Made by a program: the position numbers and the translations under genes. Below are positions 45,326 through 64,000 of a stretch of 64,000 nucleotides of DNA, one piece after another; the first letter of the stretch is position 1, and each line of letters starts with the position of its first letter. Location of the stretch: NCBI GenBank assembly GCA_016177765.1, contig JACOUP010000008.1:1151165-1215164 (forward strand). Reading direction: 5' to 3'. The notes below the pieces were generated by a model. That model saw only the letters and a list, made by a program, of their open reading frames with translations. It was not told where the DNA came from and made no database searches. The DNA is from Deltaproteobacteria bacterium. Lineage in GTDB: Bacteria; UBA10199; JACPAL01; JACOUP01.

Positions 45326-46513
45326 ATGAGGTTGCCGAGAGGTTTCTCCTTTGCCGGTCTTTCTGCCGGGATCAAGGAAGACGGGAAAAAAGACCTGGCC
45401 TTGATCGTCTCTGAGGTGCCGGCAACGGCAACGGCGGTCTTTACCCGGAACAGGGTGGTGGCCGCCCCGGTCATCCTTTCACGAAAAATCCTCAAAAAGG
45501 GGCGCTGTCAGGCGGTAGTTATTAACAGTGGGAATGCCAATGCCTGTACCGGTTATCGAGGACTGGAAGCGGCCAAAGAGGTCCAGAAAAGGGTGGCCCG
45601 TCATCTGGCACTGGATCCCAGCCTGGTGGCGGTCGCCTCCACAGGGAAGATTGGTGTTCCCCTTCCTGTGCCCCGGGTCGTTAGGGCCCTCCCACGGTTA
45701 GTTCAATCACTCTCCATCAAAAATTTTCAGAAGGCGGCGGTGGCGATCCTGACCACAGACCGTTTTGCCAAGGTGGCTTTTTACGAAGGAAAGATGGGGG
45801 GCCAGCGGTATTCGATTGTCGGGTTTGCCAAGGGGGCCGGGATGATCCGGCCGGATATGGGGCCCCACGCGACAATGCTCGCCTTCATCCTGACCGATCT
45901 CGCGGTCCAACCGAATTTGTTGAAAAAGGCATTTTTGCCGGTTGTCGACGAAACTTTTAACCGGATCACCGTGGATGGGGATACATCGACGAACGATATG
46001 GCCCTGGTCCTGGCCAACGGCCTTTCCGGGGGGAGCTTGTCGGGCCAGAGGACGATTCGTCACTTCAAAAACGGGCTTTTGGAGGTGATGCAGAAGCTGG
46101 CGATCGCCATGGTGAGGGATGGGGAAGGGGGAACAAAGGTGGTCAAGGTGACCATTTGTGGCGCCCGCAACCGCGAGGAGGCAAGAAAGGCCGCCTACGC
46201 GGTGGCCGAGTCGGAACTCGTGAAGACCTCATTTTATGGGCAGGACCCGAACTGGGGCCGTCTGCTGGCGGCGGCCGGGCGCTCCGGGGCAACTTTCGAC
46301 CCCTCGCGCGCCGATATCTATTATGATGATCTCCTTGTGGCCAGAAAGGGATCGACCACCGGTCCCGCCTTTGAAAAGAGGGCCAGGCAGGTGATGCGTC
46401 AGAACCAGTTTTTGGTCACCTTGGACCTCCATGCCGGTTCTGCTTCCTTTCACGTTTACAGTAGCGACTTAACCGTCGATTATGTTAAGCTGAACGCACA
46501 CTACCGCACGTGA
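45326..46513 (+). CDS. argJ: Bifunctional glutamate N-acetyltransferase/ornithine acetyltransferase
   Basis: This enzyme transfers acetyl groups in the cyclic arginine pathway. It cleaves itself before a threonine, visible here as HATMLAFILTD, downstream of KGAGMIRPD. Other family segments are INSGNANACTG, ASTGKIGVPLP, AILTTDRFAK and GQDPNWGRLLAAAGRSG. It has 395 residues. The stop overlaps the GTG start of sctV by 4 bp, an unexpected coupling of a biosynthetic gene with a secretion gene. Confidence 0.96.
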   Translation: MRLPRGFSFAGLSAGIKEDGKKDLALIVSEVPATATAVFTRNRVVAAPVILSRKILKKGRCQAVVINSGNANACTGYRGLEAAKEVQKRVARHLALDPSLVAVASTGKIGVPLPVPRVVRALPRLVQSLSIKNFQKAAVAILTTDRFAKVAFYEGKMGGQRYSIVGFAKGAGMIRPDMGPHATMLAFILTDLAVQPNLLKKAFLPVVDETFNRITVDGDTSTNDMALVLANGLSGGSLSGQRTIRHFKNGLLEVMQKLAIAMVRDGEGGTKVVKVTICGARNREEARKAAYAVAESELVKTSFYGQDPNWGRLLAAAGRSGATFDPSRADIYYDDLLVARKGSTTGPAFEKRARQVMRQNQFLVTLDLHAGSASFHVYSSDLTVDYVKLNAHYRT

Positions 46514-48633
46514 AACAAGACACCTTTTTCAGTCTCAACAACCTGATCGCCAAGTATAGTGATCTGATTCTGGCGGCGCTGGTGATTTCTGTTTTGGGGA
46601 TGATCATTATCCCCCTGCCGCCGGCGGTCCTGGATGTCCTCCTGATTATCGACCTGGCGATCGGTGTGATCATCCTTCTGGTGGCCCTGTACATTTCCGA
46701 GGCCTTGAAGATCGCCTCATTCCCGACGATCCTCCTTATGACGACACTGTACCGGTTGGCGTTGAACATCGCCGTCACCCGTCTGATCCTTTCGGATGGT
46801 CACGCCGGACAGGTGGTCCAGGCCTTCGGGACAATCGTGGTCGGGGGAAACTATGTGGTGGGCGGTATCCTCTTTTTGATCATCACCCTCATTAATTTTA
46901 TTGTTATCGCCAAAGGGGCCGAGCGTGTTTCGGAGGTCGGGGCCCGTTTCACCCTGGACGCGATGCCCGGCAAACAGATGTCGATTGATGCCGACCTGCG
47001 GGCCGGGATCGTCACCATGGAACAGGCGATGGAACGACGTTCCACCCTCCAGCGGGAATCGCAACTCTACGGGGCGATGGACGGCGCGATGAAGTTTGTC
47101 AAAGGGGATGCGATCGCCGGGATTATCATTACGGTGATCAACATTATCGGCGGCCTCATTATTGGTGTCATGCAACGGGGGATGACAGTGGGGGATGCGG
47201 CCAAGACTTATACCCTTTTGACCATCGGTGACGGGCTGACCGCTCAAATTCCGGCGCTGATCATTTCTGTCGCTGCCGGTGTCGTGGTGACACGGGTCGC
47301 CTCGGAACAGAAAGAGGCCAATCTGGGACGGGATATCCTGACGCAGATCACCGCCTACCCGAAGGCGCTCATCATCGGGGCGGTGCTGATGTTCATCCTG
47401 GCGGCAGTTCCCAACTTTCCCAAGATCCCCTTTATTGTCTTGGGAGTGGTGCTGGGGGGGTCCGGACTGATCCTGACACGCGGCAAGACCAGGGCGCTCC
47501 AGCAGATCATGGAGACCCCCAAGGAAGAGGTGATCAAAAAGGCGGTGGCCAAGCATGGGGACAACCTGCCGTTTGTCATGCCGTCGCCGATTTCACTGGA
47601 GGTTGGTTCGTCCCTCATTCCTTTTGTGGATGATAGTCAGGACGGGGGTCGTTTTATCAATGAACTGATCCCGCTCCTGCGGCATGGCCTCTACTATGAA
47701 CTGGGGGTCAACTTTCCCGGTATCCAGGTTCGCGGCCAGACGATCGATATGGAGGCGGAGGCGTATGTCATCAATATCAATGAGGTCCCGGTGGCGAGGG
47801 GGAAGATCGAAAAGGGCTCTATCCTTGTGGGGGAACCGCTCGAGCAATTGACCCTCTTTAATATTACCGGCAAGGAAACGATCCATCCGATCGATGGTTC
47901 CATCGTGACTTGGATCTCACAGGATTACAAAGATATCGCGACGCAGGCCGGTTTCCGGATGTGGGATATTGCGGAATACCTGATCCTCCACCTTTCTTAT
48001 GTCCTCCGTAAACATGCGAATGAATTTTTGGGATTGCAGGAGGTGCAGACGCTCCTGAACGAACTGGAAAAGAGTCATCCCGCTTTGGTAAAGGAACTGG
48101 TGCCGAAGATTATTACCGTCATGCAGCTCTCGGAGATTTTTCAGAGACTGGTGCAGGAGGATGTCTCGATCCGCGACATCAAGAACGTCTTTGCGACGCT
48201 CGCCCAATGGGGGGAGGTAGAGAGGGATACCGTCGCCCTGACGGAACATGTTCGGGCCGGACTCAAACGGTATATCACCCACAAGTTTGCGGGACAGGCA
48301 GGGACCCTCGCTGTTTATCTCTTGGACCCGGAGATTGAGGAGATGATCAAGGGGGCGATCCGCAAGACCGACAAAGGGAATTACCTCGCCCTTGAGCCGG
48401 AGGTGACGCAGGATATCGTTGAGGCGGTGGGGCGTGAGATTGCGAGCCACCCGTTGCCGCCCGGTGCCAAGCCACCGGTTATTCTGACGATTGCAGAGGT
48501 GCGGCGGTATTTTAGAAAAATTATTGAACTGGAATTTCCTCAGCTCTCCGTCCTTTCTTATCAGGAACTTTCGGAGAACGTCCGAATCCAGCCGATCGCC
48601 CGTGTCTCTCTGCCACAACAGTCCGCGGCTTAG
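46510..48633 (+). CDS. sctV: Type III secretion export apparatus protein SctV (FHIPEP family)
   Basis: The 707-residue protein has seven or eight membrane spans in the first 330 residues and a large cytoplasmic domain that forms the nonameric export gate. The signature ASFPTILLMTTLYRLALNIAVTR and the FHIPEP region GARFTLDAMPGKQMSIDADLRAG are complete. The C-terminal part has FLGLQEVQTLLNELEK and VQEDVSIRDIKNVFATLAQWG. I call it SctV rather than flagellar FlhA because sctJ, a lipoprotein specific to the non-flagellar system, lies in the same window and no flagellar gene is seen. It is 11 kb from the other T3SS genes. The start codon is GTG. Confidence 0.88.
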   Translation: MKQDTFFSLNNLIAKYSDLILAALVISVLGMIIIPLPPAVLDVLLIIDLAIGVIILLVALYISEALKIASFPTILLMTTLYRLALNIAVTRLILSDGHAGQVVQAFGTIVVGGNYVVGGILFLIITLINFIVIAKGAERVSEVGARFTLDAMPGKQMSIDADLRAGIVTMEQAMERRSTLQRESQLYGAMDGAMKFVKGDAIAGIIITVINIIGGLIIGVMQRGMTVGDAAKTYTLLTIGDGLTAQIPALIISVAAGVVVTRVASEQKEANLGRDILTQITAYPKALIIGAVLMFILAAVPNFPKIPFIVLGVVLGGSGLILTRGKTRALQQIMETPKEEVIKKAVAKHGDNLPFVMPSPISLEVGSSLIPFVDDSQDGGRFINELIPLLRHGLYYELGVNFPGIQVRGQTIDMEAEAYVININEVPVARGKIEKGSILVGEPLEQLTLFNITGKETIHPIDGSIVTWISQDYKDIATQAGFRMWDIAEYLILHLSYVLRKHANEFLGLQEVQTLLNELEKSHPALVKELVPKIITVMQLSEIFQRLVQEDVSIRDIKNVFATLAQWGEVERDTVALTEHVRAGLKRYITHKFAGQAGTLAVYLLDPEIEEMIKGAIRKTDKGNYLALEPEVTQDIVEAVGREIASHPLPPGAKPPVILTIAEVRRYFRKIIELEFPQLSVLSYQELSENVRIQPIARVSLPQQSAA

Positions 48634-52405: not shown

Positions 52406-54550
52406 ATGGGAGCTTTTACTTTCGGTTTCAGGGCCCTGAGCGGAGTCAATTCGGAAGAGACGGCCCGTTCTGTCGACCGGCCTCATACCGAGCGAACCCA
52501 GGCCACGATGGTCCAGGTGGAACCGGGTATCCACTTTTCAGGCGATTCCTTCGGGGTGGTCTGGTTATTTCCGATCCCCCTGGCTGTTCGGGAAACATGG
52601 CAACGGAAGCAATTCAGGTCCTATGGGACCGGTTTTGGAACGGCGCTTGAGGCCTTTTATCGGCCGAATCCGGAAGGGGCCGGGGTTGTCCTCGGTGCCG
52701 GAGGGACGGTCTATCCTTATTACTTTACCCGTGGCGATGAGGTTGTTGAAGGCAGGGAGCAGGAGGGGGTTACCCGGACCATCGAACGGTGGCGCGGGCA
52801 GGGGTACGGCTTTGTGGGTTTCCATATTGGGGAGGCCGACCTTTTGGCCACCGGTGGGTATGCGGTTGAGAATACTTATAGTCATCTCCCGGCCCCGGAT
52901 CATGTTATTGTCGGTTTTGCCGTCAGGGTTCTTCCTGGTGGTAAGGCGCCGGAACCGGCACCACCATCACCAGCATCCCCACCACCAGTAGCAGCGGCCC
53001 CTAAACCGGTAGCGACCCTTGGGCTCTCCGCGACAGAGCTCGATTTTGGGGAGGTTGTTGTCAAAGAAAGATCGAGTCAAACATTGACTATTACGAATAA
53101 CGGCACCGCCCCTCTTGAGATCAAAGAGATGAAGATTCAGGGGGATTATTTGGCATTCGGCTTTTCCCCCGCACCGGAGAGGGTGCCCGCCGGTGGTTCC
53201 GCAACGATTGAAATTACCGCAAACCCCACACTGGAAGGGGAGACCACAGGGCAACTGGTTTTTGAAACGAATGATGATTCCCATAAAACAGTTTCGGTGG
53301 ACCTAAAGGTGACAGGGGTGGCCCCACCAGCGCTGCCAGTTCTGGTACTGGGGACTGCTGAAATCGATTTTGGCGTGATCTCTCTTGGCAAAAAATCGAG
53401 GCCCCGGGAATTCGTCATCAACAATAATGGGAAAGCCCCTTTGCTTCTGACAGAGATTAAAACGGACAATCCTGTTTTTCAGGTCACGGTTAACAACTTG
53501 ACCATTGCGGCCGGGAGCTCCGGCGAGATCGAGGTGACCGCCTCCCCCACCGGAGAGGGGGAGATTAACGGTCAACTCCTCTTTGAGAGCAATGATCCCA
53601 ACAACAAATCTGTCGCCAAAGGGCTCAAGGTGCAAGGGAACGCCTCGGTTGCCTCAATGGAATTGTCTCATGAGGTACTGGATTTCGGTGGGGTGACAAT
53701 CGGAAAACAGGGGAGGCTGGTGCTGACCATCCACAACTATGGAACAAAGGCCTTGGGGGTCAGCGGTATCAAGGTTACCGGAGACCCCTCCTTTACGGTG
53801 GCCACAACCGAACTGACGATCGCCCCAGAGACTTCGGGGACGGTAGAGGTAGTTGTCTCACCGAAGATGGCAGGTGCTATTCAAGCCCAACTAGAACTTC
53901 AGAGCACCGATCCGAACAAGCCGAGTTTGTCAATTCCCCTGAAGGTGGAGGGGAAGGTTCGGGCGGTGGCCATTGCCGATTTCTTCGACCTTGTGGAGGG
54001 CCTGAAGGATCCGAATATCCGCGTTGATCGGGCCGGGGGAAAGGTCCTGATCGTCTCCGACGTGAAGTTTGCGACCGGCAAGGCGACCGCCCCCGATGCA
54101 CGGCGCGAGGCGACAAACTCCCGGCTCTTTAGCCAGGCGATGGACTACATTATTCGCTCCATCAAGGGGATTGAAAAGGTCCTGCCCTCGGGGCACAAGC
54201 TTCGTGTTCGTGTCGTGGGGCATACAGACAGCGTTGGCAGTGAAGCCAGCAACCAGACCCTCTCGGGAGGGAGGGCGACGATGGTAGCCGGCAAGCTCCA
54301 TGAAGAGATCGCCAAGGATGGCTCTGCGATCGGTTCCTTTGAGACCTGTTCCACGGCCGATCCCTTCTTCTGTGCCGAAGGGAAAGGGGAGTCCCAACCG
54401 GTTGCCAACAACAACTCGGAGGGAGGGCGGGCGAAAAACCGTCGGACCGAGGTCTTCCTTGAAGTGATCCTCCCAACCTCTGCGGCTCCCGCTCCTTCAG
54501 AACCGGCGCCGGCACCGGTCCCTAATCCATCAGGGACTCCTGATTTGTAG
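52406..54550 (+). CDS. Barrel-like N-terminus, three ASH domains and C-terminal OmpA domain
   Basis: The 714-residue product starts behind AAGGAGG with no Sec signal. Residues 1-180 are amphipathic beta, ending AFAVRVLPGG-like before a Pro/Ala linker. Three ASH/choice-of-anchor D-type Ig domains follow, roughly at residues 203-305, 310-412 and 413-518 (each opening with a LDFGEVVV- or IDFGVISLG-like motif and TITNNGTAPL). The end, at residues 538-688, is an OmpA peptidoglycan-binding domain with VRVVGHTDSVGSEASNQTLSG and KNRRTEV. The layout suggests an envelope scaffold from outer membrane to cell wall. The absence of a visible signal peptide is odd. Confidence 0.8.
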   Translation: MGAFTFGFRALSGVNSEETARSVDRPHTERTQATMVQVEPGIHFSGDSFGVVWLFPIPLAVRETWQRKQFRSYGTGFGTALEAFYRPNPEGAGVVLGAGGTVYPYYFTRGDEVVEGREQEGVTRTIERWRGQGYGFVGFHIGEADLLATGGYAVENTYSHLPAPDHVIVGFAVRVLPGGKAPEPAPPSPASPPPVAAAPKPVATLGLSATELDFGEVVVKERSSQTLTITNNGTAPLEIKEMKIQGDYLAFGFSPAPERVPAGGSATIEITANPTLEGETTGQLVFETNDDSHKTVSVDLKVTGVAPPALPVLVLGTAEIDFGVISLGKKSRPREFVINNNGKAPLLLTEIKTDNPVFQVTVNNLTIAAGSSGEIEVTASPTGEGEINGQLLFESNDPNNKSVAKGLKVQGNASVASMELSHEVLDFGGVTIGKQGRLVLTIHNYGTKALGVSGIKVTGDPSFTVATTELTIAPETSGTVEVVVSPKMAGAIQAQLELQSTDPNKPSLSIPLKVEGKVRAVAIADFFDLVEGLKDPNIRVDRAGGKVLIVSDVKFATGKATAPDARREATNSRLFSQAMDYIIRSIKGIEKVLPSGHKLRVRVVGHTDSVGSEASNQTLSGGRATMVAGKLHEEIAKDGSAIGSFETCSTADPFFCAEGKGESQPVANNNSEGGRAKNRRTEVFLEVILPTSAAPAPSEPAPAPVPNPSGTPDL

Positions 54551-54552
54551 GG

Positions 54553-55557
54553 TTATTTTAAAAGGGCGATAACGGCGGCAACACAGAGGACGAGGGCGAC
54601 CCCCCCGATCACAATCCAGAAAATTTCTGCCGGCCCGAGGAGACCAGCCGGTTTTTCAACCGGTAATTCCGAAAATTGCCCCTCTTCCGGCTCCTGAACC
54701 GCCGGTTGAGCAGGTTTGAGTCTTGGTTCGGGAGGAGCTGGTTTTGGTTTAGGGGCCGATTTGACTTCTTCCTCGGTAATAATCGGCGCCAGGACTTGGG
54801 CATTGATATCTTGCGGGTTGTGATAACGGACCGGGATCGTTCCCAGGAGGAGGGAATCGCCGTCCCGGAGGGCGATTCGCCCAAGCTGTTTGGTCTTGAC
54901 CTTGGTATTATTGACGAAGGTCCCGTTTTTACTGTCCAGATCCTCAAGGGTGACGGTGTCCCATTTTTTGGTGACCTTGGCATGACGCCGGGAGATCACC
55001 TCTTCATCCAGCATCCACTCGCAGGCGGGATCACGGCCGATCACCACCGTCTGTGTTTTCCCTTCGAGAACCAGTTTTTTTCCGGCATACTTCCCCTTGA
55101 GGACTTCCAGCGAAGGGGCCGTTTCTTTATCAATCGCCTTGAGGATCTTCTTGATCATCTTCACCTCAAGGACATCGGACTCGGTGACCTCATAGGGTGA
55201 TCCACCCAAGGGTGATTCACCCGAGGGATCGGCGATCTTTTGTTTGTCGCCGGTGACAAACTGCATTTCAAATTCCTCAATCCTGATCTTGTCCCCCGGC
55301 CGGAGGATGGTTTTCTCCCCGTGGTTCATCTGCCGGTTGTTAAGAAAGGTCCCGTTGGCACTCTTGAGGTCAAGGAGGAAGAGGTCTTCTTTTTCAACGA
55401 GGATCTTGGCGTGACAGCGGGAGGCGGCACGGCTCTCCAGCACCACAAAGTTGGCCGCATCGCGGCCGATCCCGATCTCTTTCTGGTCCAGTTCGTAGAC
55501 GAGCGGGGTCGGGTTTTTCTTGCTGGTGAGAATCAGGAGAGGCCTAGAGCCCACCAC
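54553..55557 (-). CDS. Tail-anchored protein with two FHA domains
   Basis: The 334-residue product has FHA domain one (IGIGRDAANFVVLESRAASRCHAKI to LDLKSANGTFLNN, residues 25-95) and FHA domain two (VVIGRDPACEWMLDEEVISRRHAKV to LEDLDSKNGTFVNN, residues 170-245). A Pro-rich linker and a C-terminal membrane helix (FWIVIGGVALVLCVAAVIALL) follow. FHA domains bind phosphothreonine; the GR, SRxHA and N-G residues are intact in both. The GTG start is inside the upstream TPR gene (14-bp overlap). A palindrome pair encodes GESPLGGSP between the domains. It may serve the T3SS or a separate envelope process. Confidence 0.87.
   Translation of the reverse strand: MVGSRPLLILTSKKNPTPLVYELDQKEIGIGRDAANFVVLESRAASRCHAKILVEKEDLFLLDLKSANGTFLNNRQMNHGEKTILRPGDKIRIEEFEMQFVTGDKQKIADPSGESPLGGSPYEVTESDVLEVKMIKKILKAIDKETAPSLEVLKGKYAGKKLVLEGKTQTVVIGRDPACEWMLDEEVISRRHAKVTKKWDTVTLEDLDSKNGTFVNNTKVKTKQLGRIALRDGDSLLLGTIPVRYHNPQDINAQVLAPIITEEEVKSAPKPKPAPPEPRLKPAQPAVQEPEEGQFSELPVEKPAGLLGPAEIFWIVIGGVALVLCVAAVIALLK
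55195..55222. repeat. Two intragenic palindromes in the FHA gene
   Basis: GGGTGATCCACCC and GGGTGATTCACCC with centres 15 bp apart, the same arrangement as in the PP2C gene. Confidence 0.75.
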
Positions 55558-56806
55558 ACCCTCCGTTCGCCTTGATTACCTTTTTCGCAATCTCCAGCTC
55601 CTTGGGGAATTCCTCCGGCCGGTCTTTGGTAAAGAGGCAAAGGTAGCGGTTGGCCTCCCGTCCGTCCCCCGCCTCATGGAAGAGTATCCCGAGGTTGTAA
55701 AGGCTCCGGGCATGATGCGCGTCCACCGCCAGGGCCGCCCGGAAATTGGCGGCGGCAGACTGTTTGTCCCCCAGGGCCAGATCGGTCATGGCCAGGTTGA
55801 AATGGGCCTCGATAAAGTCGGGATTGATCTCGCGTGCCCGGAGGTAAGCCTGCCTCGCCTCCGGATAATTCTGCCTGAGGGTGTAGGTGTACCCCAGGTC
55901 AAACCATCCCTTCTCGTTTCTTGGATTCTCTCCGGTGATCTTCAGGAAAATTTGGAGTGCCTGGTCTAAAGACCCCTCCTGCAGGAGGGCCTCTCCATAC
56001 TTGAGCCTGTTTTCTTCACTGCTGGCGGCAGTAGTGACTCCGACATTTTTTGCTTGTCCTCCGAGGGCCGTGGCCTTGGCGAAGGCGGCCTGAGCCCGCT
56101 CCGCATCCCCTTTTTCCATGTAGAGGGAGCCGAGTTTGTTCCACGGTTCCGGGTCATCCGGTTTGGTCTCAATCGCCAGCCGGTACCGGATGATCGCCTT
56201 CTCCCATTCGCCCTGTTCCCGATAGACATCCCCCAGATCGCTATGGGCATGGTACAGACGTGGTTCGATATCGGTCGCCTTTTTGAAGGAGGCGATCGCC
56301 TTTTTGCGAAAGCCGTCCGGATTCCTCCCCTGATGGACATACTCCCGGTAACAAAGCCCCAGATTGTAATGGGCGTCGGCATATTTTTTGTCTTTTTGGA
56401 TCGCCTTGGAGATGGAGGAGATCGCCTCCGGGATATTTCCCATCGCCAAATAAACGGCCCCCAAGTGATTGTGGGGACTGGCCCACTTTGAGTCAGCCTT
56501 GGCCGCCTTCCTCAGGCTCTCCAAGGCGTTCGGGTAATCCCCTTTGTATTTATAGACCAACCCCAGATTGTTCCAGGCCTCGGCAAATTTTGGGTCCATC
56601 TCGGAGGCTGTCTTGAATTCCCATTCGGCCTTGTCCAGGTCATTGACGGCCAAGTATTTGACCCCCTGGTTATTGTGGGACATCGCCAGGTCCGAGGGGA
56701 TATGCTTCTTTTTTCTGGCGGCAAAACTTGTCGAAGAGAAAAGGAGAACCAGGACAATGAGGGGAATCAGGAAACAGGAGGTCTGTCGCATCGTTTTTTG
56801 TCTCAT
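55544..56806 (-). CDS. Exported TPR-repeat protein
   Basis: The 420-residue product has a signal peptide (FLIPLIVLVLLFSSTSFA) and then about nine TPR units of the form AEAWNNLGLVYKYKGDYPNAL, spanning nearly the whole mature chain. It should be a periplasmic scaffold. It overlaps both neighbours (4 and 14 bp), so the FlgO-like, TPR and FHA genes form one translationally coupled unit. The sequence resembles pilus or secretion assembly TPR proteins, but no specific family is claimed. Confidence 0.85.
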   Translation of the reverse strand: MRQKTMRQTSCFLIPLIVLVLLFSSTSFAARKKKHIPSDLAMSHNNQGVKYLAVNDLDKAEWEFKTASEMDPKFAEAWNNLGLVYKYKGDYPNALESLRKAAKADSKWASPHNHLGAVYLAMGNIPEAISSISKAIQKDKKYADAHYNLGLCYREYVHQGRNPDGFRKKAIASFKKATDIEPRLYHAHSDLGDVYREQGEWEKAIIRYRLAIETKPDDPEPWNKLGSLYMEKGDAERAQAAFAKATALGGQAKNVGVTTAASSEENRLKYGEALLQEGSLDQALQIFLKITGENPRNEKGWFDLGYTYTLRQNYPEARQAYLRAREINPDFIEAHFNLAMTDLALGDKQSAAANFRAALAVDAHHARSLYNLGILFHEAGDGREANRYLCLFTKDRPEEFPKELEIAKKVIKANGGCGGL

Positions 56807-57834
56807 GAGGCGCAGGGGTCCAGTTCATGAAGTTCGCTTGAAGAAGGAAGCCGCTGTAACGAGAAAAGATCTCCTGGGAGGAGGGAGAGTGCCTTTTTAA
56901 ATTCTGAGGCGGCCCCTTTCTTGCTTTGGTTGAGAAGGGTGGCCCCCGCCGTTTGATGGATATCCGCCTCCAGGTAGTTTTTGGCGATAACCCCCATCCG
57001 TTCGGTGATGTAGGGGTGGAGGAGGGCCGCCTTGGTCATGTCCCGGGCCGCCTCTTCCACGAAGGGGCGGGCAAAATCGTTCCCGATCACCTTTCTTAAG
57101 GTGGCCTTCATCAGAAGAGATTCGGCATGCCCGAGGTAGGCCTGGACGTAGTTGTAATCCCGGCTGATGGCGTCTCCAAAGAGTTTGATGGCAGGGTCGA
57201 TTTCATCAGCCCGGCCTGATTCCATCGAAAGACGGCCGAGGATGTAGCTTTTAAACGCCTCCAGGGAACGGGTCTGGTGTTTGTACGGGAGCCTCCTTTT
57301 TCTATCTGCCTTCAACCCCTTTATATCGGCGGAGGCCCGGTCGGCGATCTCCAAAAAGAGTTCGAAGATCTTTTCCGATTGGGGAAATTCGACCGTCCAG
57401 TTGGCGCGTCCCAGTTCTTTCTCCTCCTGGACATCCACGAAACGGGCGTAAACCTTCAGGGTTGATTCTTCACGGGTGAAAAAACCGTAGACGACAGAGG
57501 CGGCACCGACCATTTTGCCGATATCGGCCGCTTCTTTCGTTTCCGTGGCCTGGTACCGTTTCTTGAGGGAGCTCTTGACGACCGTCAGATTTTTGTTCAG
57601 GGAGAAATAGTCAGAAAGGAGGAGACGGAAGGCTTCAGAGAGCCATTCTTCCGATTTTTGCCGGCTCTGATTCCCGAACGAAAGAACCATTATTTTTTTG
57701 TCTTTGGTTTCCATCCCCTCGCCACGATTTCTCTGAAAAACCAATTCCCAGTTCGGGCAGGAACCAGCTCGAAGGGGGAAGAGCGGCCAGAGTGAGAGGA
57801 GAGCCGTTAGCAGGAATAGTTTGAAAGGGGTCAT
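56803..57834 (-). CDS. Exported FlgO/TolB-N-like protein with helical repeats
   Basis: The 343-residue product has a signal peptide ending near PLRAGSC. Residues 45-155 (KIMVLSFGNQSRQKSEEWLSEA to VYGFFTREESTLKVYARFVD) resemble the FlgO/CsgG/TolB-N fold that appears in envelope and secretion proteins. The C-terminal 180 residues are helical and TPR-like. It heads a minus-strand unit with the TPR and FHA genes. A TATAAT-like -10 box is visible upstream without a clear -35. Its exact role is unknown. Confidence 0.72.
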   Translation of the reverse strand: MTPFKLFLLTALLSLWPLFPLRAGSCPNWELVFQRNRGEGMETKDKKIMVLSFGNQSRQKSEEWLSEAFRLLLSDYFSLNKNLTVVKSSLKKRYQATETKEAADIGKMVGAASVVYGFFTREESTLKVYARFVDVQEEKELGRANWTVEFPQSEKIFELFLEIADRASADIKGLKADRKRRLPYKHQTRSLEAFKSYILGRLSMESGRADEIDPAIKLFGDAISRDYNYVQAYLGHAESLLMKATLRKVIGNDFARPFVEEAARDMTKAALLHPYITERMGVIAKNYLEADIHQTAGATLLNQSKKGAASEFKKALSLLPGDLFSLQRLPSSSELHELDPCAS

Positions 57835-59310: not shown

Positions 59311-61344
59311 GTGGCTGACGAGCGGGATGAAAAAACAGATGTCCACTTCAAGGCCGAGTCGGCCCCTTCCCCTTCTTCGGAAGCGGCTTACCCTTGTTTG
59401 GAGATCATTAGTGGGCCTCGTTCGGGGACCCGGTTTTCCCTGAAACAAGGGATGACCTCCCTGGGGAGGTCGAGCGAAAATGATGTCGTCATGGATGACT
59501 CCAGTGTCTCCAGGCGTCATGCCGAAATAGAGATTGCCGGTCCCAGAATGACGATTCGGGATGCCGGGAGTCGTAACGGCATCAAGGTTGGGGGGCAGAA
59601 GATTGAACAGCCAGTGGAATTGGGGCATGAGGGCCGGGTCAAGATCGGTATTTTTGAATTACGTCTCTTGACAGGTCCCGCCGGTCCCGCAACTCCGTCG
59701 CCTCCCCAACAAACGCCGGACGCTGGGGCCGCTGAATTCCCTGAACCGGGGGGAGGGGTCGAAAATTTCAACGAACCGTTGAGTGAATCACCTCTGGGCG
59801 AATCGCCATTCAGTGAATCCCCCTTGCCCAGGGAATCGCTTTCCCCCAAAAAGAAGAAATGGATAATTTATCTCCTTCTGCTTCTTTTAATCGGCGGGGG
59901 CAGTTTTGCCATTTACCAGTATCTCTTGCCAAAAATTATCCCGCCGCTTCCTGAACTGGTCCAGAAAGGGGAAGGCGGCCCGGTGGAGGAGGGGAAGATG
60001 GGGCAGGCACCGGCAACGGGCGCTAGAACGGAGGCGACGGTCCCGATTTTTCTGGATTTTACCTCAACCCCGCTTCCGGCCGAGGTCTTCTTTGGGGATC
60101 AGTCGGTCGGGATGACACCGCTTCGTCTTCAACAGACTCTTCAGACCAGCCGGATTTATGAAGTCCGGGCGGTCTACAGACTTGCCGAGATGGGGGAGAC
60201 GCTTGAGGCCAAGTTGCAGTTTTCACCACCGCCTGGCGTTCAGGTCCTGACCATTCCTTTTGTAGGCCGGGTTGGGCTTTTTAAAATTGCCTCTCTGCCG
60301 CGGGATGTCGCACTCTATCTGGAGGGGTATTATGAAGGAGATCCCTTCAAGGCCAGGCCGGTGAAGTTCAGCGATATTGTCTTCGGCAAACCGATCTACA
60401 TCCCTTACGGAAAGTATGTGATGGATGTGAGGCGGAATCGCCAGCTGGGGGTTTCCCAGACCTTTCTGGATGAGGTGGTTTACCGGAGGGAATTTGTCAT
60501 CTCCCCGGAGGCCAGCAACTATACGGTATCGATTGCAGACGCCGACCTGACACTCTTCCCGGTAGAGATTGCCTCCGTGCCCTCCGGCGCCGAGGTCTAC
60601 TTTGACGATAAAAAAGTCGGTGAGACGCCGTATCAGGGGAGTTTTCCTGTTGGTGAACATGCGATGGTTCTCAAAAAAGAGGGGTATTTTGACTACGCCC
60701 AGATGGTCAAGATGCCGGTTAATACCCCTTACGCGGCGGAGGTCAAACTTCAGACCTCGGCGGCCGGGGAGATGATCAACCTGGCGGGCGACAAGATCAG
60801 GGAGGGGCGGTATCAGGAGGCGCAAGACGCCCTTGTTGAGGGGTTGAAGAGGGCGCCGGCCCCGCGGGAGATTGCCCAGATCAACTATCTCCTGGGGCTG
60901 ACCTTTTTCCGGACGAACCAATACCCCGAGGCGGTCGGTTACTTCAATCAGGCGATCGGCCATGATGATTTCAAGTACCGGGCCCGGTTAGGGATAGCGA
61001 ACGTGGCGTTGGCCCAGGGGGAGAGGATCCAGGCGTTACAGCTCTTCATTGATGTCTTTATGGCCTCCGAGGACCCTGCCGTTCGTTCGGAGGCGGCCCG
61101 CCTGTTCCAACAGATCAGCCCCTTGAAGTCGGTTCTTTTTATCGCCTCCGACCCGCCGGGGGCCAAGGTTTTGGCCAATACCACGGAGGTGGCCCAACCG
61201 GCGCCGGTGATCCTCCACGACTTGGGGGTCGGGACCTACCGGATCACGATTAGAAAAGAAGGGTATCTTCCTGAGGAGATCAAGATAAACCTGGGGGTCA
61301 GTGAATTCAAGCCGGTGATCGCCAAATTAAAACCGGTGAAATAG
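59311..61344 (+). CDS. sctD: SctD-like T3SS inner-membrane ring protein: FHA, membrane span, PEGA-like and TPR regions
   Basis: The 677-residue product has an N-terminal FHA domain (residues 27-120; LGRSSENDVVMDDSSVSRRHAEI, then GSRNGIKV), a Pro-rich linker and one membrane helix (residues 184-206). The rest is a large periplasmic part. SctD/YscD proteins have just this cytoplasmic FHA-like domain and single span. Here the periplasmic part has PEGA-like units near 246-300, 421-470 and 609-660, with a TPR stretch at 487-600, instead of an obvious BON/ring domain. sctJ lies 1.6 kb downstream in the usual order. The start is GTG with a GGAGG that overlaps it. The identity as SctD rests on position and layout. 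Confidence 0.65.
   Translation: MADERDEKTDVHFKAESAPSPSSEAAYPCLEIISGPRSGTRFSLKQGMTSLGRSSENDVVMDDSSVSRRHAEIEIAGPRMTIRDAGSRNGIKVGGQKIEQPVELGHEGRVKIGIFELRLLTGPAGPATPSPPQQTPDAGAAEFPEPGGGVENFNEPLSESPLGESPFSESPLPRESLSPKKKKWIIYLLLLLLIGGGSFAIYQYLLPKIIPPLPELVQKGEGGPVEEGKMGQAPATGARTEATVPIFLDFTSTPLPAEVFFGDQSVGMTPLRLQQTLQTSRIYEVRAVYRLAEMGETLEAKLQFSPPPGVQVLTIPFVGRVGLFKIASLPRDVALYLEGYYEGDPFKARPVKFSDIVFGKPIYIPYGKYVMDVRRNRQLGVSQTFLDEVVYRREFVISPEASNYTVSIADADLTLFPVEIASVPSGAEVYFDDKKVGETPYQGSFPVGEHAMVLKKEGYFDYAQMVKMPVNTPYAAEVKLQTSAAGEMINLAGDKIREGRYQEAQDALVEGLKRAPAPREIAQINYLLGLTFFRTNQYPEAVGYFNQAIGHDDFKYRARLGIANVALAQGERIQALQLFIDVFMASEDPAVRSEAARLFQQISPLKSVLFIASDPPGAKVLANTTEVAQPAPVILHDLGVGTYRITIRKEGYLPEEIKINLGVSEFKPVIAKLKPVK
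59781..59840. repeat. Repeated ESPLGESP-coding palindromes in the sctD candidate
   Basis: Degenerate GTGAATCAC, GGGCGAATCGCC, AGTGAATCC and GGGAATCGC units form the linker LSESPLGESPFSESPLPRES between the FHA domain and the membrane span. Confidence 0.6.
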
Positions 61345-61378
61345 AAAGCGGATGGGGCGACGTGAACCTACTATTAAT

Positions 61379-61407
61379 TTGACGGCTGGACCAAAGTTTG
61401 CTAAAGT
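61379..61407 (+). promoter_or_regulatory. Sigma-70-type promoter within the T3SS gene cluster
   Basis: TTGACG, 17 bases, TAAAGT, ending 23 bases before the start at 61431. Confidence 0.45.
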
Positions 61408-61430
61408 TTCTAAGGTGTTAGACCCAATTT

Positions 61431-61748
61431 ATGGCGAATAACCCGCTGGCCGGTTTTAATGTCAGTTACCCCGCAATAGAGAAGCTTATCGATACGGAGG
61501 AGTTTGCCACGGTCAATAAAAACTTTGGTGCCGCCTACTCCGAGCTTGAGAAAATCACCAAGCAAAAAGGGGGGTTAGGCAAGGTCAAACAGGCCCGGAA
61601 AGGGATGAAGGCCCTTGAAAAGGTGATGGACCTGTTGGCCGAACTCCTCAAGCTCAAATACCGGTTGATGGCCTCCCAGGAGGGGGTTTCCAGCAAGGAG
61701 AAAGGGACTGGGGTGTCTTCTCCCCCCAAGGGTGGGAATAAAAAGTAA
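61431..61748 (+). CDS. Small helical T3SS-cluster protein (SctE-position)
   Basis: The 105-residue protein is lysine- and alanine-rich and almost wholly helical, with the heptad-like stretch KQARKGMKALEKVMDLLAELLKLKYRLM. It has no signal peptide. It ends in a flexible SSKEKGTGVSSPPKGGNKK-like tail. Directly after sctD, this is the place where Yersinia yscE, a needle chaperone, sits. That match is positional, since the sequence itself was not recognised. Confidence 0.6.
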   Translation: MANNPLAGFNVSYPAIEKLIDTEEFATVNKNFGAAYSELEKITKQKGGLGKVKQARKGMKALEKVMDLLAELLKLKYRLMASQEGVSSKEKGTGVSSPPKGGNKK

Positions 61749-61756
61749 GGGGGGAC

Positions 61757-61785
61757 GAAACTCCACAGGGGGACCGGTCCGATAA
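61757..61785 (+). promoter_or_regulatory. Possible T3SS promoter element (GAAACT-N16-CCGATAA)
   Basis: The same two boxes at the same spacing occur at 63889-63917, before the next T3SS-cluster gene start. The -10-like box matches the surface regulon, but the -35 differs and the spacing is longer. Confidence 0.35.
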
Positions 61786-61819
61786 TCAGGGTAGAGGGAT
61801 TAAATAAAAGGAGTCACCT

Positions 61820-62350
61820 ATGATTACTTCCATTGACCCGTCACAGATTAGGCAAGAGGCGCGGGCTGTCGATATGCCGAGCACCGGGATGAGTACCTTC
61901 TCGACGGTGATGGCCTCCTCAGCCCCGACGGCAGGCGCCTCGCTCAGTGTGGCCGGGCAGAACAAGAGTGCCGCGGTGACCTCCGCCGCGATCAGCGGTG
62001 TCTCCGGGGCGACGGCAACCAATGGGTATATGACCCCTTTTGGTAGTCCGGCAGCGATGCCTGTCAGCTCTCCATTCCAGGGTGGTTTACCGACGGGGGG
62101 TGGCAGTGGTGCGGCGGGCGGCGTGCTTCCTCCAGGGGCGAATACCTCTTTAATGCAGGGCGGTGCCGGAGACGTTTCCTACCTCCAGAACCTGGATATC
62201 ATCGGCCGGATGAGAGACACCAACATGCAGATGCTGGTCTTGCAATCCGATGTGCAAAATGTGAACCGTGAATTCTCGACCCTTTCGAACGTCTTGAAGA
62301 GTAAGCATGATACGGAGATGAACTCGGTTCGAAACATCCGGGTAGCGTAA
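61820..62350 (+). CDS. Needle/inner-rod-like T3SS protein (SctF or SctI candidate)
   Basis: The 176-residue protein has an Ala/Ser/Gly-rich, probably disordered first 115 residues. Its C-terminal amphipathic helix reads IGRMRDTNMQMLVLQSDVQNVN followed by REFSTLSNVLKSKHDTEMNSV. Rod and needle subunits have this kind of C-terminal helical end with an LQ and an S-N-x-x-K pattern. The position in the order D-E-F-G-J supports it. A GGAG site precedes the ATG. Without structure or homologue search, needle versus rod cannot be decided, and it could be an export-control protein. Confidence 0.5.
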   Translation: MITSIDPSQIRQEARAVDMPSTGMSTFSTVMASSAPTAGASLSVAGQNKSAAVTSAAISGVSGATATNGYMTPFGSPAAMPVSSPFQGGLPTGGGSGAAGGVLPPGANTSLMQGGAGDVSYLQNLDIIGRMRDTNMQMLVLQSDVQNVNREFSTLSNVLKSKHDTEMNSVRNIRVA

Positions 62351-62359
62351 AATGTCGGC

Positions 62360-62462
62360 AAAGGGCCATCTACTTTGTTGGTTGCTTCGACAGCTCCTCG
62401 ACGTACCTTTCAGTACGCCTGCGTCGCGTCTTCAGCAACCTGCCTCGTATCTGGCGCCTTTT
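62360..62462. repeat. Long imperfect hairpin between the rod/needle candidate and the TPR gene
   Basis: Nested arms: AAAGGGCCA with TGGCGCCTTT, GGTTGCT (62380) with AGCAACC (62434), and an inner CGTAC-6-GTACG (62402-62417). It fills nearly the whole 130-bp gap and could end or stabilise the upstream transcript. Confidence 0.7.
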
Positions 62463-62480
62463 CCAACATTTTAGAAATTT

Positions 62481-62933
62481 ATGGTCAATATCGAACGCGA
62501 CGATTTAATTGTGATGATGGAATCGGGGTATATCTATCTCGGGATGGGGCGGTTTGTTGAAGCCCGCGAGGTCTTCGAAGGAGTTTCTGTCCTTGCCCCG
62601 GAGAGTGAGGTCCCCCACGTGGCTATCGGGAGTGCCTATTTTGCGGAAGGGAAATTCGACAAGGCGATCCAGTGCTACAAGAAAGCCCTCGGTCTGAAGC
62701 CGGATAGTTCCTTTGCCCACTCTTATATGGGGGAGGCCCTTTTCTTTAAGGGGAGAAAAGAGGAGGCGATGGATGAGCTTAAAAAGGCGGCCTCTTTGGA
62801 TCCGGAAGGGAAATCAGGCGGTTTTGCCCAGGCCCTGCTGGATGCGGTCCAAAAGGGGTTTCAACCTTCCTTCAAGGGTGATTCACCCAGGGGTGAGTCA
62901 CCCAAGCCGGAGACGAACGTTTCCCGGAGTTAG
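62481..62933 (+). CDS. TPR-repeat T3SS-cluster protein (SctG/chaperone position)
   Basis: The 150-residue protein has three TPR units covering residues 8-115 (MESGYIYLGMGRFVEAREVFE, IGSAYFAEGKFDKAIQCY, MGEALFFKGRKEEAMDEL) and a tail containing KGDSPRGESPK from palindromes. It is cytoplasmic, with no signal peptide. Needle-subunit chaperones (YscG) and translocator chaperones (LcrH) have three TPRs and similar length. It lies directly before sctJ, so a T3SS chaperone role is likely but inferred. Confidence 0.65.
   Translation: MVNIERDDLIVMMESGYIYLGMGRFVEAREVFEGVSVLAPESEVPHVAIGSAYFAEGKFDKAIQCYKKALGLKPDSSFAHSYMGEALFFKGRKEEAMDELKKAASLDPEGKSGGFAQALLDAVQKGFQPSFKGDSPRGESPKPETNVSRS
62876..62907. repeat. 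Two intragenic palindromes in the TPR gene
   Basis: GGGTGATTCACCC and GGGTGAGTCACCC with centres 15 bp apart. They encode KGDSPRGESPK near the C-terminus. Confidence 0.75.
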
Positions 62934-62941
62934 CGGATGAT

Positions 62942-63901
62942 ATGCAAAGGCTCCTTTTAGGATTTCTTGTTGTTTTCTTTCTGGCCGCTTGTGCCGATGC
63001 CGACCTGCACCATAATTTGATGGAAGTGGATGCCGACGAGATCCTGGTCATCCTTCAGCGGAATGGGATCCAGGCCAAGAAGGAAAAGGAGATCTCCGGG
63101 CAGGATGTCAGCTGGAAAATTGTGGTTCCCGCCAATACGATTGCCGAGGCGAGGAAACTTCTGGTTCAGAATAACCTCCCCAGACGCCGTGAGTTGGGCC
63201 TCTCCGGGGTTTACAAGGAAAAGGGGCTTGTTCCGACACCGGATGAGCAAAGGGCCCGGTTTTTGCTGGCCCTCAAGGGAGAAATCATCAATTCCCTCCG
63301 CAAGATTCCGGGCGTGGTCGATTCTGATGTCGTCTTGAATATCCCAACGGAAAATGAATTTTCACTGATGGAAGGGGAGAAGAAACGGCCGACCGCCTCG
63401 GTGATCGTCCGGACCTACCCCGGGGAGCAGGCCGGTATCCTGACGGAGGGAAAGGTCCAGCGTTTTGTTGCCAATTCAATCCCCAACATGGATCCCAACG
63501 ATGTTGCCGTTATTGTGACCCAGGCCCCGATGGGGGCCGGGGAGTCGGCTGTTGCCGGTAGTCCGGTCCCTTCAGTCCCTGGGGCGGCCCCTGTCCGGAA
63601 TGAAAAGGAGGGGGTGAATTACTCTTGGGCCCATATCGCCGGCCTTCGGATGGATGAAGCTTCAGCCGCCCGGTTCAAGATTTATGCCTTGATCAGCTTG
63701 TTTGCCCTGATGATTCTTTCGCTATCTCTGATTATCAATGTCGTCCGGGTCAACCGGCTGAAACAGAAGGCCCAGACGGCTACGGTGACCGCTGTTCCCT
63801 TGGAGGCCCCGAGGGGTGGGGCCCAGGGGTTCCTCCCTGGCGGCGGAGGGGGGGCGGCAAGGTCGGCGTCAACAAACCAACAGACGGCGAAACTGGGGTA
63901 G
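62942..63901 (+). CDS. sctJ: Type III secretion inner-membrane ring lipoprotein SctJ
   Basis: The 319-residue protein has a lipobox (VVFFLAAC) and two ring-building domains: residues 25-85 (VDADEILVILQRNGIQAKKE) and residues 100-200 (LKGEIINSLRKIPGVVDSDVVLN to ANSIPNMDPNDVAVIVTQ). A single membrane helix follows near residues 243-268. This is the YscJ/PrgK arrangement; flagellar FliF lacks the lipid anchor. The tail after the helix is long, rich in glycine and alanine, and of unknown role. The start is 8 bp after the TPR stop. Confidence 0.92.
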   Translation: MQRLLLGFLVVFFLAACADADLHHNLMEVDADEILVILQRNGIQAKKEKEISGQDVSWKIVVPANTIAEARKLLVQNNLPRRRELGLSGVYKEKGLVPTPDEQRARFLLALKGEIINSLRKIPGVVDSDVVLNIPTENEFSLMEGEKKRPTASVIVRTYPGEQAGILTEGKVQRFVANSIPNMDPNDVAVIVTQAPMGAGESAVAGSPVPSVPGAAPVRNEKEGVNYSWAHIAGLRMDEASAARFKIYALISLFALMILSLSLIINVVRVNRLKQKAQTATVTAVPLEAPRGGAQGFLPGGGGGAARSASTNQQTAKLG

Positions 63902-63917
63902 GGGTGTTGACCGATAA
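63889..63917 (+). promoter_or_regulatory. Possible T3SS promoter element at the end of sctJ
   Basis: GAAACT, 16 bases, CCGATAA, matching 61757-61785 in both boxes and spacing. It overlaps the last codons of sctJ. Confidence 0.35.
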
Positions 63918-63944
63918 TAGCATTGAAAGGATCTCGTTAATTTT

Positions 63945-64000
63945 ATGAACCTCTCAGGGATTGATCCAAACCGGTTAAAATTTGAGTCCAAGGTCCATGA
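63945..64000 (+). CDS. Start of a further T3SS-cluster gene, partial
   Basis: ATG at 63945 opens a frame reading MNLSGIDPNRLKFESKVH to the right edge. Only 18 residues are visible. It lacks a signal peptide. By position after sctJ it may be a sctK or sctL homologue, but the fragment is too short to identify. Confidence 0.4.
   Translation, partial: MNLSGIDPNRLKFESKVH

Follow-up and report, generated by a model that had tools for sequence, protein, structure and literature searches.

Introduction

Type III secretion systems (T3SS) of the Myxo kind have been described as having neither a secretin nor a needle (PMC3459982, PMC10433427), and FliG and SctF are stated to be absent from them (Abby and Rocha 2012, PMC3459982). 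The long locus of Myxococcus xanthus, T3SS* (MXAN_2434-2464), comprises SctI, SctJ, SctN, SctL, SctQ, SctR, SctS, SctT, SctU and SctV along with LcrH-like chaperones, has no secretin, and acts together with the Tad-like Kil pilus (PMC12075869, PMC10433427). FliO has been reported for both T3SS of this species (PMC12248157). In this study, we analysed a 64,000-nucleotide stretch (the window; positions 1151165-1215164 of contig JACOUP010000008.1) from the 1.92-Mb, 96.5% complete assembly GCA_016177765.1 of a Deltaproteobacteria bacterium, in which a T3SS operon begins, together with relatives from its class. The class, which corresponds to UBA10199 in GTDB, is sampled by 46 genomes, the named relatives being metagenome-assembled genomes of uncultured bacteria, and some counts are over 45 genomes; the T3SS locus was read in 21 of them, that of the window and 20 relatives. 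We consider it probable, at roughly 0.7, that this locus encodes a vertically conserved myxobacterial-type non-flagellar T3SS with a static FliG-like adaptor and a SctF-like needle protein. The FliG at the position of SctK and the SctF-like protein are the two points that look new.

Type and relationship of the secretion system

The T3SS operon is cut by the window end, and its remaining ~10 kb were read in the flanking sequence (locus L002, whose coordinates plus 56835 give window coordinates; the operon end, L002:17415, is window position 74250). All genes are on the plus strand, in the order g105, g176, TPR150, sctJ, g159, g107, sigma, sctI, fliG, fliH, fliI, yscO/fliJ, fliK, fliM, fliN, fliO, sctR, sctS and sctT. 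The sctV gene (46510-48633, plus strand; PF00771, 1.6e-234), encoding the 707-amino acid export-gate ring protein, is within the window, at a distance of about 11 kb upstream from the operon; the sctU gene maps to a different contig. A preliminary description of this DNA had proposed a divergent non-flagellar T3SS from five open reading frames, all of which are present where it had placed them, and had pointed to the flanking genome for the missing parts; fliI, fliM/fliN and sctR-S-T indeed follow downstream, with no T3SS secretin among them. As a separate observation, sctU stands alone at L110:5547-9412: its neighbours are genes for an FHA protein and for a Ser/Thr-kinase-like protein bearing PEGA units, not other T3SS genes.

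SctJ (62942-63901, plus strand; 319 amino acids; PF01514, 3.7e-25), the inner-membrane ring lipoprotein, is the only YscJ/FliF-type protein in the whole genome. It scores 133 bits (1.1e-38) with NCBIfam TIGR02544, under the model cut-off of 162, and 40 bits with the FliF model, and its lipobox Cys17 is invariant in the 20 relatives. The inner rod gene sctI (L002:8938-9450, plus strand) passes TIGR02497 (27.7 bits, cut-off 23.45), and the SctI profile matches only the rod protein MxiI in the PDB (E=0.15). With the NCBIfam models, SctR, SctU and SctV pass the injectisome cut-offs but not the flagellar ones; SctV, for example, reaches 796 bits for TIGR01399 (cut-off 692) versus 680 for FlhA (cut-off 772). 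SctT scores 141 bits with the injectisome model versus 129 with FliR, below both cut-offs, and FliI exceeds the cut-off of one flagellar and of one SctN model. The cytoplasmic parts, in contrast, are of flagellar type: FliM scores 71 bits versus 21 for SctQ, and FliO, FliJ and the sigma factor (FliA/WhiG family, 4.5e-43) also score as flagellar. Thus the locus is like a flagellar one in its fliG-to-fliR gene order, FliO, FliG, separate FliM and FliN and FliA/WhiG sigma, whereas it differs from it in having the SctJ lipoprotein for FliF, SctI, an injectisome-type gate and a FliG without torque charges, and in having no rod, hook or MotB genes.

In a tree of concatenated FliI, FliP, FliQ and FliR (1044 columns), the T3SS of the class form a single clade (support 97/100), which joins both T3SS loci of the myxobacterium-like genome G073 together with G282, G220 and G122 (87/90). 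Ten flagella form a separate clade (100/100), and rhizobial, Mycetohabitans and chlamydia-like systems stand elsewhere in the tree. The genome G073 (9 Mb, 69% GC) has one long and one short T3SS locus, the pattern described for Cystobacterineae, and was compared directly, while the named Myxococcus loci entered through their published descriptions. Its long locus holds, in one row, g105, g176, the TPR protein, sigma, SctI, SctJ, FliG, FliH, FliI, FliJ, FliK, FliM/N, FliO, P, Q and R, and shares with the class the order sigma-SctI-SctJ-FliG-FliH-FliI...R-S-T as well as FliO; homologues of g105 are weak (9e-13 in G309, 6e-4 in G073). Because of the tree grouping and this shared gene row, we assign the class system to the Myxo kind: judged by tree and gene content, the locus is a non-flagellar T3SS of the T3SS* type near the flagellum/injectisome split, and the kinship with incomplete myxobacterial T3SS that had been suggested earlier is borne out. 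Unlike the Myxo systems, those of the class have separate FliM and FliN, a sctI that follows the sigma gene and is separated from sctJ, and, in the genome of the window, no Tad-type secretin operon.

The order of genes also recalls Yersinia Ysc, as had been noted: D-E-F-G...J and N-O-P-Q-R-S-T are kept, with an E/F/G trio by position. The "(I)" that the preliminary description had set at 61820 is not there, sctI being a separate gene downstream. In contrast to Ysc, the class system has no secretin, no verified SctD, a FliG for SctK, and split FliM and FliN.

Lipoprotein-type SctJ occurs in 39/46 class genomes. Gene order is identical for every profile-found gene in all 21 loci, and gaps are mainly at contig or locus ends, in L057 (four genes only), or concern the gene at 59311. 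Of the proteins encoded at the operon start, the small helical one, the rod/needle-like one and the TPR one are kept in 20-21 of the 21 loci (g105 in 20, TPR150 in all 21). Flagellar rod proteins (PF00460) were found in only 4/45 class genomes and in none of the other 41, the genome of the window included. The same four carry full-length FliF, and three of them have both a flagellum and the T3SS. The MotB plug (PF13677) is found in these four and in one other genome, and was not found in that of the window. In L057 (G044, also flagellated), the operon start from g105 to sctJ is present and the part from sigma to sctT is missing from the stretch.

It could be argued that the cluster is a decayed flagellum which keeps its export apparatus, considering the presence of FliG, FliM, FliN, FliO, FliK and a FliA-type sigma factor. 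But SctJ, SctI and the injectisome-type SctR, SctU and SctV speak against this, and the cluster is intact across many families. Moreover, in three class genomes a complete flagellum coexists with this T3SS, the two forming separate branches, and the tree does not nest the T3SS genes among the flagellar genes of the class; the opposite was found. We therefore regard decay as very improbable. That 39 of the 46 genomes of this uncultured class retain the system argues for its being functional and against a relic.

A FliG homologue at the position of SctK

The gene that adjoins the SctJ and SctL/FliH genes, which is the place of SctK in injectisomes, encodes a FliG-family protein. The family profile matches Thermotoga FliG in the PDB (1.6e-14) with both the middle and the C-terminal armadillo domains aligned. 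The first 13 Foldseek matches of its AlphaFold model (pLDDT 82) to the PDB are all FliG (E 0.004-0.2); their TM scores are low, as one expects when a multi-domain protein is flexible. There is no SctK among these PDB matches. The G073 locus has a FliG match as well (1e-18).

Torque residues were read from a HMMER alignment to T. maritima FliG; a global MAFFT alignment with the flagellar FliG of the class misaligned the torque region and was not used. Taking the E. coli residues to be R281, D288 and D289, the D289 position is Arg in 16/19 members, D288 is acidic in 3/19, and R281 shows no conservation. In place of the FliM-binding EHPQ motif, most members of the T3SS family have ESPR. By these alignments, the protein encoded at the SctK position is a genuine FliG homologue whose torque charges have been lost. 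Since MotB and rod genes are lacking, a motor role is unlikely, and a structural adaptor would be the simplest role.

The T3SS of Chlamydia, which have a secretin and CdsD, show the gene order CdsJ-CT560-CdsL-R-S-T. The class T3SS branches elsewhere in the tree. In the chlamydia-like genomes G299 and G162, the gene between SctJ and SctL gives a weak match to the FliG profile (1e-7 and 4e-6, in small databases). These genes, at the CT560 position, lie at L090:8880-9713 and L091:1035-1970. Ct560 of Chlamydia binds CdsQ (PMC2734247), and SctK has been entered as "FliG (?)" in the comparison table of a review (PMC4045390). A FliG without torque charges at this position, in a system near the flagellum/injectisome split, opens the FliG-to-SctK question to direct testing.

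A needle candidate and its putative chaperones

The second gene of the operon, g176 (61820-62350, plus strand), encodes a 176-amino acid protein with a Gly/Ala-rich N-terminus and a C-terminal helix motif, LxLQxxxQ...SNxxKxxxDxxxxxIrNiR. Among 177,635 PDB sequences, the best match of a profile of all family members is the needle chain 7y6c (2e-4), which is EsaG with its co-chaperones (PMC9426511), and 9 of the 14 matches below E=10 are needle proteins. A second run with bridging sequences gave the needle match at E=7.8e-5, and the reversed profile, used as a control, gave no needle matches in the PDB. A single rhizobial needle aligns to the family (P=0.0012), and the Pfam needle model independently finds g176 homologues.

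The gene is flanked by g105 (61431-61748, plus strand), with which the T3SS operon proper begins and which encodes a 105-amino acid helical protein that is SctE-like by position, and by TPR150 (62481-62933, plus strand), a SctG/SctY-like protein (LcrH_SycD 2e-11, SctY 4e-7, CdsG 5e-5). Both are candidate needle chaperones, and the three genes correspond by position to the SctE-F-G chaperone-needle-chaperone trio. Further downstream, g159 begins at 63945 on the plus strand and runs past the window end at 64000; it encodes a conserved T3SS-operon protein.

Alternatively, g176 may be a second inner rod or another early substrate whose C-terminal helix is merely needle-like. Its long, Gly-rich N-terminus is unlike needle proteins of ~80 amino acids, the needle match is weak without bridging sequences, and rod and needle C-termini are generally alike. 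However, sctI is a clear gene of its own by its profile score, and its PDB match is to MxiI only, while the g176 profile matches needles and its reverse none; the gene order and the independent Pfam finding also speak for a needle. We consider the alternative unlikely. The evidence for g176 as a needle protein is good but not final, and the 61820 protein is probably a SctF-like needle subunit.

As homologues of g176 occur in both G073 loci, the "needleless" label of myxobacterial-type systems may be wrong. In contrast to the description of Myxo systems as having no FliG and no SctF, homologues of both were found in the class and in the G073 locus; if the probable SctF-like gene is right, this would be an error in the definition of the Myxo kind, not a difference from it. 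A SctF-like gene in these systems, if true, would change the view of contact-dependent prey lysis by Myxococcus.

Needle-like genes were also seen in other settings. Three tandem, nearly identical copies with Gly-rich N-termini lie away from the T3SS locus in G173:C76 (L118, L125), and two tandem copies lie directly before sctV in other divergent T3SS of G340 and G201 (L095:9928-10548 and L093:10263-10881).

Several points weigh against the reading of the locus as a myxobacterial-type T3SS with an adaptor FliG and a needle. The 87/90 support for the myxobacterial grouping is not decisive, and G122 and G201 have long branches. The naming of G073 as a myxobacterium and of G299 and G162 as chlamydiae is taken from their gene content, genome size and GC. 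Some members of the g176 family had been collected with the Pfam needle model, and for this reason a profile restricted to the members that g176 itself retrieves was tested; its best match is still EsaG, at E=0.034. The equation of FliG with SctK stays a matter of position and of the weak matches in the chlamydia-like genomes, because the FliG profile reaches no solved SctK. Finally, the whole model is drawn from sequence.

The FHA-PEGA-TPR protein upstream of the operon

Directly before g105 lies a gene (59311-61344, plus strand) for a protein with an FHA domain (residues 49-113), one transmembrane helix (184-205) and, beyond it, PEGA-beta-PEGA-TPR-PEGA units, a topology like that of SctD. 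This architecture was described correctly before: the domain search agrees with it, and in the AlphaFold model (pLDDT 80.8) the helix is followed by all-beta PEGA-like domains and a TPR solenoid, with none of the ring-building alpha/beta (RBM/BON) folds of SctD. Its interpretation as an altered SctD, by contrast, is not supported. Only the FHA domain is SctD-like (TIGR02500, 20.6 bits, cut-off 86), and profile searches for SctD gave FHA-only matches throughout.

The divergent genes next to it, all on the minus strand, encode FHA2 (54553-55557), an FHA-FHA-transmembrane protein outside the T3SS core; a TPR protein (55544-56806) whose conservation goes along with that of FHA2 and the 59311 gene; and the 343-amino acid protein X (56803-57834), with homologues in L040, L158, L165, L163, L162, L159 and L164. 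Proteins of the 59311 type, either full-length or, where a contig ends, as a large fragment, are present in 38/45 class genomes. By genome, 34 have both this protein and sctJ, four have sctJ only, four have the 59311 type only, and three have neither. The four carriers scored T3SS-negative, by sctJ alone, are G005 (95% complete), G021 (99%), G036 (95%) and G038 (73%), and in the first three the gene stands beside the divergent trio (X, TPR, FHA2) with no adjoining T3SS gene. In six T3SS-bearing genomes (G011, G016, G026, G040, G041, G044) the module is found at a distance from the T3SS operon, which then starts at g105; in G016, G026, G040 and G044 the upstream flank of the operon was read and consists of unrelated genes. 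FHA2 homologues are found beside every relocated gene.

Could the protein nevertheless be the SctD of this T3SS, with PEGA and TPR units in place of the RBM/BON ring? Its FHA-transmembrane-periplasm topology would fit, its gene is directly upstream of the operon in 15/21 class loci, it occurs in 34/38 T3SS-bearing genomes, and a homologous FHA2/TPR pair is also found by the G073 T3SS. No canonical periplasmic SctD domain was found in the genome of the window, a weak negative since PF16693, the periplasmic SctD model which gave nothing usable there, also fails on the chlamydia-like CdsD candidate. On the other side stand the four sctJ-less carriers, three of them 95-99% complete, and the six genomes in which the gene is elsewhere with its divergent partners. 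Furthermore, full-length homologues were not found in the other T3SS-bearing genomes searched, and the FHA domain retains its phosphothreonine-binding residues (R53, S67, H70 and N89, invariant), the mark of a signalling FHA. An SctD role is thus quite unlikely. The sctJ-less genomes, the stand-alone modules and the relocations cut the 59311 protein loose from the T3SS: together with the divergent FHA/TPR set it is a class-wide module separable from the secretion system, and a tempting false lead, the "PEGA SctD", is removed. The TPR-FHA2 pair near, or downstream of, the myxobacterial-type T3SS of G073 (FHA2 2.9e-31) suggests an old functional link of the module with the T3SS and makes cooperation possible; the 59311 protein would then be part of a neighbouring envelope/signalling module.

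In the sctJ-less G005, an open frame of at least 3360 amino acids lies beside the 59311-type gene (L158:9820-19901). In the window, a 714-amino acid protein that combines HYDIN/ASH Ig-like repeats with a C-terminal OmpA domain (52406-54550) adjoins the FHA/TPR module. PEGA-bearing Ser/Thr kinases are encoded beside sctU and downstream of the operon.

Proposed mechanism, outer-membrane exit and candidate cargo

The recognizable parts comprise an injectisome-type gate (SctR, T, U, V), an ATPase complex (FliH, FliI, YscO), a ring of the single-transmembrane lipoprotein SctJ, the inner rod SctI, a cytoplasmic ring of separate FliM and FliN, FliO, a FliA/WhiG-type sigma factor and the FliG homologue. 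In the mechanism that we propose, the FliG-like protein would do no motor work. It would instead be a static adaptor by which both the FliM/FliN ring and the FliH-FliI ATPase are suspended beneath the SctJ ring, a task that falls to SctK in injectisomes. SctI and the SctF-like 176-amino acid protein would be exported first, with g105 and the TPR protein probably keeping the needle subunit soluble like the SctE/SctG pair, and the downstream SycD/LcrH-like chaperones may then deliver large candidate secreted proteins. As there is no secretin of its own, the needle would stay periplasmic or borrow an exit, such as the type II secretion system (T2SS) or PilQ-type secretin of its own genome or, in Myxococcus, Tad/Kil. 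A bolder view, to which we would give somewhat under even odds, is that such systems are SctD-less living intermediates between flagellum and injectisome, in which a de-motorized FliG suspends a flagellar FliM/FliN ring right beneath the SctJ lipoprotein ring, injectisome SctK descends from this FliG, and the "needleless" myxobacterial-type machines make a needle from the SctF-like protein.

The absence of a secretin that had been reported for the window stands as far as the T3SS is concerned, but the genome does have exactly two, in other operons which were named from gene order and sequence, one T2SS-like and one PilM-N-O-P-Q-like. Neither is with the T3SS operon or in a Tad-type context, and a Tad partner as in Myxococcus was therefore discarded. 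A hat-like inner-membrane structure tied to flagellar T3SS mutants (PMC9380563) was also considered, with no link seen. That needle and substrates pass through a borrowed channel, here the T2SS or PilQ-type secretin, would agree with the lack of an own secretin, with the two available ones and with the partnership of T3SS* and the Kil pilus in Myxococcus. However, no genetic link of either secretin operon with the T3SS was seen, and we hold this route to be rather doubtful. The earlier idea of an outer-membrane solution of its own remains a guess, to which no tested feature points.

Downstream of the operon, L003:675-7226 encodes two large proteins that share a C-terminal region, together with a 296-amino acid protein and a pair of SycD/LcrH-like TPR chaperones, whose scores (78 and 72 bits) stay under the cut-off of 105. 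The block recurs in G003 (L114), and the chaperone pair flanking the 296-amino acid protein recurs in G010 (L113). The large proteins are candidate substrates or translocators. Just past this cargo block, an FHA-sigma54 activator and a PEGA Ser/Thr kinase are encoded (L003:7223-10964), and the same pair is found in G003 (L114:15-3941).

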